Shown here: positions 53,391-56,083 of the stretch, one piece after another
Position numbering within the stretch: the first letter of the stretch is position 1
How the letters are laid out: each line of letters starts with the position of its first letter
NCBI RefSeq assembly: GCF_020594515.1
Contig: NZ_JAJCTH010000004.1
Location: forward strand, 1 to 64,000
Origin: Rhodoferax sp. U2-2l
GTDB taxonomy: Bacteria > Pseudomonadota > Gammaproteobacteria > Burkholderiales > Burkholderiaceae_C
DNA: 64,000 nt
Direction of reading: 5' to 3'
The notes under the pieces: model-generated
The model's input: the letters and a program-made list of their open reading frames with translations, nothing else
Database searches by the model: none
What the model was told of the DNA's origin: nothing
Made by a program: the position numbers and the translations under genes

Positions 53391-54167
53391 ATGTTCAATG
53401 ACTTGAAAGACAAACGCGTGTTGATCACCGGGTCAACGGCCGGCATCGGGCTGGCAGCCGCGCAGTCTTTTGCGCGATATGGCGCCAAGATCGGCATCAC
53501 CGGACAGACGTTGCCCGACGATCTGCCGCAAACACTGGAGGCACTGCGGCAGCTTGGCGCCGAGGCCGAATTTTTTCAGGGTAACCTGTGCAACACCCAG
53601 GCCTGCCAGCAGTTGATCGAGCAATTTGTGGCCCGCTTCGGCGGCATTGATGTGGTGATCAACAACGTCGGCGGCTTGGTGGGCCGCAAGCAGATCGGTG
53701 ACATTGACGACGAATTTTTTGACCGGGTGTTTGACCTGAATGCTCGCTCGGCGCACATGGTCACCAAATACGCCATGCCACACCTGAAGGCCTCGGCACA
53801 GGCCAGCGGCACCACCGCGTCAGTGATTCTGGTGGGCTCGTTTGCCAGTTACATGGGCGGTGGGCCGGGCGCGTCGCTGTATGCCGCTGCCAAGGCCTGG
53901 ATCCACACCATCCAGAAAAACTGGGTCTCGTCTTACACCAAGGACGGCGTGCGTTTCAACGTGGTGTCACCGGGTACCGTGGACACCGCGTTCCATGCCG
54001 ACAAAAACGACGCCGTGCGCGCCCAGATCAACGCCACCATTCCGATGGGCCGCTTTGCCACCGCACAAGAGGTGGCGCCCGCCTTCCTGTTCCTGGCGTC
54101 GCATGCCTGCAGCGGCTACATCACCGGTCAGGTGATCAACGTCAACGGCGGTCAGTACATGCCCTGA
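53391..54167 (+). CDS. Short-chain dehydrogenase/reductase, sugar-type
   Basis: 258 residues with classical SDR features: TGSTAGIG at 13-20, NNVGG at 91-95, catalytic Ser150, Tyr164 and Lys168 (YAAAK), PGTVDT and a C-terminal INVNGGQYMP. The ATG at 53391 has AAGGAG. It is divergent from the sugar-acid operon and shares the operator region, so it probably oxidises the parent sugar (for example galactose) to its lactone, which the SMP-30-type enzyme then opens. Substrate is not shown by sequence. Confidence 0.88.
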   Translation: MFNDLKDKRVLITGSTAGIGLAAAQSFARYGAKIGITGQTLPDDLPQTLEALRQLGAEAEFFQGNLCNTQACQQLIEQFVARFGGIDVVINNVGGLVGRKQIGDIDDEFFDRVFDLNARSAHMVTKYAMPHLKASAQASGTTASVILVGSFASYMGGGPGASLYAAAKAWIHTIQKNWVSSYTKDGVRFNVVSPGTVDTAFHADKNDAVRAQINATIPMGRFATAQEVAPAFLFLASHACSGYITGQVINVNGGQYMP

Positions 54168-54270
54168 TGTTGGCTCGTGCGGCGGCTTGAGGAGACACAT
54201 GCGCGTTGGACACTTGACAACGTGCATCGTTTCCGGGTGCTGCATGCATCGTTGGGGGCTGGTAGGTGAT

Positions 54271-54378
54271 GACCGATGAGACTGGGGCGAATGCTTCCGC
54301 GGCTGTCCCCCGGTTTGGGACGACGCCCCAAACCTCCTCCTTGATGCCGCTGCACCATTCACCCCAGTCTCATCGGTC
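54271..54378 (-). repeat. Structured hairpin element, copy A
   Basis: Outer arms 54271-54293 and 54356-54378 pair at 22 of 23 positions, and the remaining pair becomes G-U if the minus strand is transcribed. Reading the minus strand, the inside holds GCAGCGGCATCAAGGAGGA, a variable hairpin (ggtttgggg/cccaaacc type) and GGGGGACAGCCGCGG; the GCGGC of the first box can pair with the GCCGC of the second. Copy B, 56 bases away in the opposite orientation, has the same boxes but different stems. Confidence 0.75.
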
Positions 54379-54434
54379 GCCAGCGCTGTAGGTAAACCAA
54401 CAATGAATTCCTCACGCTTCGCACTTTGTTGGCT

Positions 54435-54530
54435 GACTCAGGACGGCGTGGCATTCAGCGCAGCGGCATCAAGGAGGAGCCCGCAGGGCGGGGGACAGCC
54501 GCGGAGCTGAGTGCCGCGTCGTCCTGAGTC
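54435..54530 (+). repeat. Structured hairpin element, copy B
   Basis: Outer arms 54435-54458 and 54507-54530 pair over all 24 positions in RNA read from the plus strand, 21 Watson-Crick and 3 G-U. Inside are GCAGCGGCATCAAGGAGGA, a short hairpin gccc-gca-gggc type, and GGGGGACAGCCGCGG, exactly the boxes of copy A. The outer and inner stems share almost no sequence with those of copy A. No T-run follows, so it is not a plain terminator. Confidence 0.75.
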
Positions 54531-54683
54531 CGGGCGTACCCGGATCCCCAGAGCTTCACCCGCGTGCAAGCTGGAAAACAGCCATTCCAACGTGACCACC
54601 TTTGAAATCATGGATGGCATATCAAGCCCGCCATGACAGCGAAACCATCGGGCTGTGCCCCCAAAATCACCCGAAAGTCTCTC

Positions 54684-54723
54684 GAATAAATTTTTATAAA
54701 TCAATCACTTAAGGTGATCGATT
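54684..54723 (-). terminator. Probable terminator of the iron-type alcohol dehydrogenase gene
   Basis: On the minus strand a ten-base-pair stem with one G-T pair (54714-54723 with 54699-54708) and a five-base loop is followed by an AT-rich tract (ttataaaaatttatt). It begins 11 bases after the stop codon of the dehydrogenase gene. Confidence 0.55.
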
Positions 54724-54733
54724 TGCGCGTTTT

Positions 54734-56083
54734 CTAAGTGCCCTTCTTCTCCCGGGCAGCCACACGACCGCGCTGCGCCTTCTTGGCGACCACCCGCCTG
54801 CGCGCTGCTTTTTCGGTTGTCACTGGACTGTCCGCATCCACCCCGCCCAGAGGCTCATGCGGCAGCACCAGCCGGATCACCCCCTCGCATTCAGCTTGCG
54901 ACAGATACACCGGCACCGGGTAATTGGTCATCGCCTCGTGGCAGGCGGCGCGGGCCAGGGCGGGGATATCTTCCTCACGCAGCGCGGCCAGCGTGGTGGG
55001 AATGCCCAGGCGGGTGTTCATGGCGTCGATGGCATCCAGGAACTTGGACGCCAGCACGGCATCAGACTCGGTCTTTTTGCCGACCTTGGAGCGCAGCGCC
55101 AGCTGAGCCAGCTGCGGCTCAATGGCCGGGCGCATGAACCGCAACACATGCGGCAGCAGGATGGCGTTGGCCAGGCCGTGCGGCGTGTGGTAGCGCCCAC
55201 CCAACTGGTGCGCGATGGCGTGCACATAGCCCACATTGGCGCGGGTGAAGGCCTGACCGGCGTAGTTGGCGGCCAGTGCCATCTTCTCGCGCGCTGCCAG
55301 GTCCTGGCCGTTGGCGTAAGCCACGGGCAGCGCCTCAAAAATCATGCCCACGGCCGACAGCGCCATGCGGTCGGTGAACGCCGTGCGCCAGTGGCCAATA
55401 TAGGCCTCGATGGCGTGGGTGAGCGCGTCCATGCCGGTGGCTGCGGTGATGTCAGGTGGCAGGCCCAGCATCAGGTTGGGGTCGAGCGCGGCCATGCGCG
55501 GCACGATGCGGGTGTCGGCAATCACCAGTTTGCGCTGGGTGTCGGGGTCCGAGATGACGGCGGCCACGGTCACCTCGGAGCCGGTACCGGCGGTGGTGGG
55601 CACGGCGTAAATGGGTGCGGGTGTGCGCAAGCCCTTGAAGTAGCCCGCCAGTTGCGCCGGGTGTTTGTTGTTGGCCGCGGCCAGGGCAATGGCCTTGGCC
55701 GCATCCATCGCCGAGCCGCCGCCAAAAGCGATGACGGCATCACAGCCCTTGCGCTTGAACAGCGCCACACCTTGCTCGATCAGTGCCACCGGCGCATCGG
55801 GCAGCATCTTGTCAAACACCACATACGCCGTGCCGCCCGCCTTGAGCGCCGCCAGCAGCGGCGCCATCAGCCCCAGCTTGGCCACCACCGGGTCGGTCAC
55901 CACCAAGACCCGGGTGTGATCAAAGTCACAGATGGCCTGACCCAGCCGGGCGCTGGCGCCCGGGCCGACGAGCATCGTGGGTTGGGGAATGGGCAGCAGC
56001 CGGGTGGCCACCCCCACGGCACGCATCACCGCTGTCAAACCCACGGAACGCACTGTTCCCGACAGCAAATTGGTCAACATCAT
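54734..56083 (-). CDS. Iron-containing alcohol dehydrogenase with basic C-terminal tail
   Basis: 449 residues. The group III ADH core has VLVVTDPVVAKLGL, AFGGGSAMDAAKAIAL, PTTAGTGSEVT and the metal ligands in GMDALTHAIEAYIG and HAIAHQLGGRYHTPHGLAN. The last 28 residues (TTEKAARRRVVAKKAQRG onward) are an Ala/Arg/Lys-rich tail absent from most family members. The protein on the opposite strand has a comparable tail. It likely interconverts an aldehyde and an alcohol with NAD(P); with an acyl-ACP-reductase-like neighbour, a fatty aldehyde is a reasonable guess. Confidence 0.88.
   Translation of the reverse strand: MMLTNLLSGTVRSVGLTAVMRAVGVATRLLPIPQPTMLVGPGASARLGQAICDFDHTRVLVVTDPVVAKLGLMAPLLAALKAGGTAYVVFDKMLPDAPVALIEQGVALFKRKGCDAVIAFGGGSAMDAAKAIALAAANNKHPAQLAGYFKGLRTPAPIYAVPTTAGTGSEVTVAAVISDPDTQRKLVIADTRIVPRMAALDPNLMLGLPPDITAATGMDALTHAIEAYIGHWRTAFTDRMALSAVGMIFEALPVAYANGQDLAAREKMALAANYAGQAFTRANVGYVHAIAHQLGGRYHTPHGLANAILLPHVLRFMRPAIEPQLAQLALRSKVGKKTESDAVLASKFLDAIDAMNTRLGIPTTLAALREEDIPALARAACHEAMTNYPVPVYLSQAECEGVIRLVLPHEPLGGVDADSPVTTEKAARRRVVAKKAQRGRVAAREKKGT

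Follow-up and report, generated by a model that had tools for sequence, protein, structure and literature searches.

A divergent hairpin pair in Rhodoferax sp. U2-2l, probably two copies of a dispersed family of elements selected as a folded strand

The window, by which we mean the whole 64,000-nucleotide stretch of Rhodoferax sp. U2-2l DNA that was analysed, holds a gene-free gap of 566 bases between neighbouring ORFs (54168-54733), as the first-pass annotation had stated; small mechanically called ORFs overlap it. The gap is bounded by a plus-strand ORF that ends at 54167 and a minus-strand ORF that ends at 54734, and these ORFs look like a short-chain dehydrogenase and an iron-type alcohol dehydrogenase. 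A consensus scan found no promoter-like or terminator-like site in the gap. It contains two hairpins, A and B, in divergent orientation (Table 1), separated by a spacer of about the length that is usual for the hairpin family (median of 50 bases between model ends). The two copies had been described as sharing two internal boxes exactly, and this is correct: box 1, GCAGCGGCATCAAGGAGGA, and box 2, GGGGGACAGCCGCGG, are identical in A and B.

Table 1. Positions of the two hairpins and their parts in the window.
Feature	Position	Strand	Description
Hairpin A	54271..54378	- (sense = minus)	25-position outer stem P1, GCA/GGA loop, P2, purine boxes, terminal hairpin P3
Hairpin B	54435..54530	+ (sense = plus)	Architecture as in A
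Spacer of the divergent pair A/B	54379..54434	.	56 bases
Box 1 of A	54335..54353	-	GCA, 5′ arm of P2, ATC and purine strand AAGGAGGA
Box 2 of A	54297..54311	-	Purine strand GGGGGACA, 3′ arm of P2 and start of GGA
Box 1 of B	54460..54478	+	
Box 2 of B	54490..54504	+	
P1 5′ arm of A	54354..54378	-	3′ arm 54271-54295; sequence variable, pairing kept across the family
P1 5′ arm of B	54435..54459	+	3′ arm 54506-54530
P3 terminal hairpin of A	54312..54334	-	
P3 terminal hairpin of B	54479..54489	+	

Folded as RNA, the sense strands of A and B reach -73.4 and -69.2 kcal/mol (z = -9.4 and -9.3), and none of 200 shuffles folds as well. The opposite strands reach -63.8 kcal/mol (z = -10.2) for A and -57.7 kcal/mol (z = -7.6) for B; by z, the opposite strand of A is equally extreme, and B's is less extreme. 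DNA parameters likewise favour the sense strands (-42.0 versus -34.5 and -38.2 versus -30.2). All imperfect pairs are G-U in the sense strand, as had been proposed: three G-U mispairs and no A-C are seen in the outer stem of B, and one G-U and no A-C in the 23-bp stem of A. The outer stems of the two copies are indeed paired and different in sequence. However, the description of them as non-homologous does not hold, since 10 of 25 positions are identical on each arm; they are diverged relatives rather than unrelated sequences. Across 107 thinned long-type copies, several positions of the outer stem are conserved; position -20, for instance, is G in 95% and position -21 in 85%.

A model (R1), built from 34 sequences that include A, scores hairpin A at 101.1 bits and hairpin B, which was outside the building set, at 89.4 bits. 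Further copies of the boxes, which the first-pass annotation had proposed to look for, are present in the window's genome and in many relatives. R1 has 45 matches in the window's genome, which form 11 divergent pairs and 23 singles, with 8 sense and 11 antisense (both tallies counted by hand). Box 1 with up to three mismatches has 38 matches in this genome and its reversed control none; several of the three-mismatch matches sit in coding-like DNA without box 2 and look like chance. The core AAGGAGGA(N4-34)GGGGACA has 39 matches there. In a sample of 150 genomes of the GTDB family, 68 have exact matches to this core; the reversed core gives 8 matches in 7 of the 150 (counted by hand). Among the matches listed, named contigs belong to Rhodoferax, Variovorax, Hydrogenophaga, Ramlibacter, Acidovorax and others, to Oxalobacteraceae and Sulfurisoma, and to the Xanthomonadaceae Stenotrophomonas, Xanthomonas, Luteimonas, Lysobacter and Thermomonas; no Bordetella or other Alcaligenaceae is named among them (119 stretches, several from unnamed Burkholderiales). 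Within the class, the exact pattern was found in 5 of 369 genomes: two from the window's family, two from family f14, and one from family f27 (G232), whose two matches were counted by pattern without a stem check. A class-wide model search in which the best 10 candidates per genome were scored gave at least 4 of 369 genomes. A plasmid collection yielded partial matches in three Variovorax plasmid records, and a phage collection yielded no matches to the hairpins. Two contigs titled Bacillus subtilis SK7B5 (L171 and L215) carry hairpins whose stems resemble those at Stenotrophomonas loci L135 and L207, and a labelling error or contamination of the record is likely. We read hairpins A and B as members of a family of short dispersed elements that are probably non-autonomous.

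To describe the family we collected 238 distinct pattern matches in 230 loci, 213 of which have the outer stem. Many of the 25 without it are records from unrelated phyla; these are chance matches, and some of the others are real copies in which one arm has been replaced or has degenerated. The stemmed copies divide into 128 of a long type, 49 of a short type that lacks P2, and 36 others. Pairing in the long-type outer stem is 87-100% over 23 positions, then 75% and 69%, falling to 39%. Proceeding inward, a long-type copy has a GNA/GNA loop, a 5-bp P2, three bases, the purine strand AAGGAGGA, a variable P3 hairpin and the second purine strand CGGGGGACA; P2 is GCGAA/TTCGC, GCGGC/GCCGC, or contains tandem G.A as GCGAA/TGAGC. 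Each copy is a three-helix rod. Model matches are mostly 88-110 nt long, the short subtype being about 90 nt, and the unit amounts to a hairpin of about 90-110 nt together with some 10-20 flanking bases (flanks judged by eye). The outer stems of the window's genome fall into classes of 15, 8, 6, 4 and 2 copies, with 10 unclassed, and similar stems occur at unrelated loci.

Some copies depart from this plan. An insert of 18-19 bases (GGACTTGGGGTTTTGCC) lies in the 5′ side of P2, with the outer stem still paired, in copies such as L016(-), L095(-), L157(+), L262(+) and L314(-). At L145(+) and L209(+) the 5′ arm is replaced by a common sequence, CCGTTGCTTGAC..GGGAAGTCCCTGTAA, and the 3′ half is intact; these two are chimeric or re-joined elements. 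A second dispersed sequence (like GGGTGATGYGACCGGGCTTYGGGGTGAAAGGCGCGCGCC, on either strand) was noticed by eye beside L092, L094, L316 and L318, on contigs C13, C17, C8 and C5 of the window's genome.

The first-pass annotation had named covariation over many copies as a check on its reading, and such covariation is present. In an alignment of 34 diverse long-type copies, 36 of 38 pairs show two-sided changes and 89.6% of cells pair; the covariation score is 0.742, compared with 0.199 after shuffling and at most 0.133 for slid partners. The imperfect pairs are strongly asymmetric. Over the 213 stemmed copies, with a scoring that treats G-U and A-C alike, there are 411 G-U and 40 A-C mispairs. 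The excess is retained on thinning (340 versus 32 in 167 copies; 71 versus 17 in 41 copies, the harshest thinning), and at the inner outer-stem positions of 59 thinned copies the counts are 102 versus 23 (p = 4.6e-13), with 45 hairpins having more G-U, 5 more A-C and 9 ties. These counts bear on the idea that the palindromes are maintained neutrally, by arm-to-arm copying in replication and with no selection on a folded strand. Such copying would likewise yield stems that stay paired yet drift; however, with drift and no selection on one particular strand, G-U and A-C should be equally frequent, and neutral copying would leave changes in the internal loop, described below, unexplained. We therefore regard neutral maintenance as very improbable.

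The internal boxes were compared in 312 model-found copies (8 of 320 distinct matches could not be placed), 56 of which have non-exact boxes, relatives from the same genome included; placement was poor in four insert-bearing copies and a few cut-off ones. Box conservation as such is partly built in, because most copies were found with exact core patterns, and the informative copies are those in which a box has changed. The 5′ strand reads AAGGGGGA in 17 copies, and in 16 of them the facing GGRGG has a central A, a swap of A.G to G.A; the exception, L195, has G/G. Similarly, AAGAAGGA or AGGAAGGA, which have A at the second G, occur in 6 copies, and in 5 of these a T stands opposite, a swap of G.G to A-U; the exception is L294, where no T faces the A. 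By hand tally the first swap is represented in 13 genomes or contigs, family f14 among them, and the second in 5. In three copies both purine strands are one base longer (GGAAGG facing GGAGGG). Counter-cases with A at the 3′ centre and no 5′ G are L312, L214 and L086.

In view of these covarying swaps, the conserved boxes are most simply read as the two facing strands of one purine-rich motif and not as free single-stranded sequence. A free Shine-Dalgarno-like bait (AAGGAGG) is disfavoured because the box covaries with its facing strand. The occurrence of GG-R-GG on both strands suggests a G-quadruplex core, but facing pairs fit the G.G to A-U swap better. Covariation of the stems, the excess of G-U over A-C and the covarying purine boxes together strongly support selection on a single-stranded fold with one sense. 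The first-pass annotation had gone further and proposed selection on RNA structure. Selection on a folded strand of one sense stands; RNA as such does not follow, in view of the random orientation to genes (see below), the lack of promoter-like and terminator-like sites in the window's gap and the mobile-DNA behaviour of the family. Very similar traces would be expected of a folded ssDNA intermediate.

We next examined the genes around the copies, called with our own codon-score script. Among 179 groups of hairpins, 168 lie in intergenic gaps, 10 overlap an ORF call and one could not be placed. Pairs occupy 51 co-directional, 20 convergent and 6 divergent gaps; for singles the numbers are 52, 26 and 5, and for mixed groups 2, 4 and 2. 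Divergent, promoter-bearing gaps are thus rare among pairs and singles (11 of 160), compared with 72 of 335 gaps overall, a figure that includes gaps with elements; the comparison subtracts these only approximately. Singles in co-directional gaps are oriented at random with respect to the genes (22 sense, 30 antisense). REP-like elements spread over gaps in a like manner. This distribution and the random orientation are hard to reconcile with a cis-acting mRNA element, and an mRNA leader or 3′-UTR element was rejected for lack of an orientation preference.

The arrangement of copies was assessed over the loci searched with the model (325 matches, 320 distinct). There are 101 adjacent pairs, of which 93 are divergent, 4 convergent and 4 in the same direction (spacings 52-100), with a median spacing of 50; 123 matches are unpaired. 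By eye, the spacers between paired hairpins show a weak GAATNCC...GYTGGC leader. Hairpin B recurs by itself at several loci of congeners with about 78-98% identity over roughly 60-120 bp, for example 98% over 97 bp in G153. A search with the flanks covered six of the eight prepared blocks, all but L315 and L329. Between hisA and hisF the window's genome has a single hairpin, where in three relatives (G203, G153 and G151) the genes abut or are a few bases apart. Between ureB and ureC it has a hairpin pair, which is absent from G153, G203, G172 and G151; G154 carries a single hairpin there that corresponds to the right-hand one of the window's genome. No clear target duplication was seen by eye in the alignments of occupied and empty sites at two loci. 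At the window locus itself, the two neighbouring genes are separated by about 0.4 Mb in G203 and fall on separate contigs in G153. In two other relatives, hisA-hisF carries inserted small genes that by eye resemble nucleotidyltransferase/HEPN pairs (L357, G172:C9, and L358, G154:C264).

An in-gene example is provided by mpl, in which a short-type hairpin is translated in frame (QVKEEPA.RAGDTE) in four genomes (L064/L416 in G125, L072 in G040, L127 and L178). All eight fetched mpl loci were covered in this comparison; an earlier alignment had caught three (G133, G081 and G125). The stretch SARL...EADEYD is 46-61 residues long in the four genomes with the hairpin and 17-21 in seven others, including the window's genome, a contrast that is not a rate because the four positives came from pattern matches. 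The occupied and empty sites and the mpl insertion fit gain of the hairpin, and we infer this direction of change; loss in the relatives is the alternative. Hairpins also recur between the same putative carboxylase subunit genes in several genera (L079, L096, L129, L131, L154, L367 and L368), as a pair in G154 and as a single in the window's genome and G172. Copies at the same place in several genera, as at this locus and in mpl, could mean selected retention instead of mobility.

The first-pass annotation had set aside REP/BIME-type palindromes as the main alternative. They are the closest working analogy, and it is membership in that class that fails, by tag, size and the link to a RAYT. As described in the parts of PMC3733652 and PMC8266576 that bear on them, REP, BIME and REPIN elements resemble the present hairpins in being short, dispersed, intergenic and non-autonomous, often arranged as inverted dimers, with a strand-specific fold that has irregular internal positions; most adjacent pairs here are likewise divergent. 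In contrast, REPs are 20-40 bp long and carry a terminal GTAG or CGTC tag (PMC3733652, PMC8266576, same parts), whereas the hairpins here are about three times longer, at about 90-110 nt, with three helices, a covarying purine zipper, very variable stems, no tag and no linked RAYT. In 107 thinned long-type copies the positions beyond the stem base reach at most 0.44 bits each, and no conserved tetranucleotide stands there. No transposase linked to the hairpins was found. The one Y1 transposase match of the window's genome (L111) has no hairpin core within 1.5 kb on either side, and across the 150 genomes hairpins are present in 14 of 38 without Y1 and 54 of 112 with it (p = 0.26; split counted by hand). 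RAYT/Y1 mobilisation was rejected for lack of an association in these data, and a true GTAG- or CGTC-tagged REP/BIME moved by a RAYT, which would account for the dispersed intergenic copies, the inverted dimers and the strand-specific hairpin, is improbable. A gene carried beside the hairpins was also sought, by clustering 784 ORFs within 2.5 kb at the model-match loci; by eye, none of the 25 largest clusters looks like a transposase and most resemble ordinary orthologous neighbours.

Other known repeats were compared by description. Rickettsia palindromic elements, as outlined in part of PMC10969869, are also palindromic and inserted in frame in a coding gene, as in mpl here; they differ in being about 150 bp long, in ten families and in Rickettsia. 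The NEMIS/Correia and ERIC MITEs named there are miniature dispersed inverted-repeat elements like ours, and NEMIS provides RNase III substrates according to a title cited in PMC10969869. A closer candidate is the 'Beta-proteobacterial repeat element' (BRE) of Hot et al. 2011, with which we give the family a roughly even chance of being identical. NEMIS/Correia and ERIC elements have terminal inverted repeats and IS-like ends.

In the portions of PMC3110155 that describe it, the BRE is about 90 bp long (75-91), lies usually in intergenic regions and sometimes inside coding sequences, is listed in Rhodoferax, Polaromonas, Acidovorax, Delftia and Bordetella, and was found via a region predicted as structured RNA; its copy coordinates include B. 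pertussis 2208359-2208448 (NC_002929). It thus resembles our hairpins in size (our short subtype), host taxa, Comamonadaceae being common to both, structured region and the combination of intergenic and in-gene copies (here mpl), which are shared traits and not proof. However, its multi-copy loci are reported there as tandem, with no or few bases between copies, where ours are mostly divergent, and no Bordetella or other Alcaligenaceae record is named among our listed matches. A literature search on BRE, the box letters and REP or MITE in these genera yielded nothing beyond BRE that is recognisable as this element; a review cites the Polaromonas JS666 genome paper for MITEs, and that paper may contain an earlier description of it.

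The BRE comparison also bears on the proposal that the hairpin is a functional RNA, either a small RNA or a structured UTR domain, whose genes are multicopy and whose purine zipper would be the site for a protein or ligand. Should BRE and the hairpins be one family, the bprJ transcripts of about 80 and 200 nt seen by Northern (excerpts of PMC3110155) and the change of bprJ in an RNase III mutant (excerpts of PMC8386462) would speak for this proposal, as do the tolerance of G-U almost like a full pair, the non-canonical covariation as in RNA motifs, and the sense strands folding best in kcal/mol, though they do so with DNA parameters as well. Against it stand the random orientation to genes, the scan of the window's gap and the lack of an Rfam match in the sequence scanned. 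The last agrees with the first-pass annotation, which could not assign the hairpins to any known RNA family: with Rfam 15, 3001 bases of the window gave three sub-threshold matches (E 0.04-0.44), and 14 loci (105382 bases) gave none at the gathering score. The GGA motifs suggested a CsrA sponge, but this version is rejected, as the 99.99%-complete genome lacks a match to CsrA (PF02599, which matches in 3 of 14 control genomes). Overall, a functional RNA is a doubtful explanation.

Our preferred reading, to which we give a probability of roughly 0.6, is that A and B are mobile, non-autonomous hairpins of a REP/BIME-like kind, under selection as a folded single strand of either RNA or ssDNA. It overlaps with the readings of RNA as the working form and of identity with BRE. 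The selected entity would be the fold of one strand, with a 25-position stem, a GNA/GNA 3x3 loop, a short P2 (Watson-Crick or tandem G.A) and a variable terminal hairpin, within which the facing strands AAGGAGGA and CGGGGGACA would pair non-canonically. A trans-acting factor would recognise the purine-zipper shape on the folded sense strand, either as ssDNA, during replication or transposition, or as RNA, and the unit would then be copied or moved; the constant length of the stem and the constant spacing would set where cleavage or joining takes place. The element would have spread in this way into intergenic sites and occasionally into a gene in frame, often as a head-to-head pair about 50 bp apart. 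What was observed are the copies and their fold, the covariation and strand asymmetry, the pair geometry, and the occupied and empty sites; the recognition in trans, the moving enzyme and the choice between DNA and RNA as the working strand are inferred. A narrower proposal is more tentative: a SINE-like or guide-like mobile family, spreading as head-to-head pairs, whose folded strand, plausibly RNA, is built round a non-canonical motif of facing GGRGG strands, possibly two-layered and G-quadruplex-like, that would serve as the recognition shape for the trans-acting factor.

If the preferred reading is right, many environmental Burkholderiales and some Xanthomonadaceae carry a structured mobile element, in up to tens of copies, that matched no Rfam family in the sequence scanned. 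The family makes it possible to test whether dispersed bacterial palindromes are selected as RNA or as ssDNA, and what moves repeats that have no linked RAYT. For the purine-purine motif it offers a clean covariation record. And if BRE is the same family, it may explain the Bordetella repeat and structured small RNA reported in 2011, to which that paper assigned no function.
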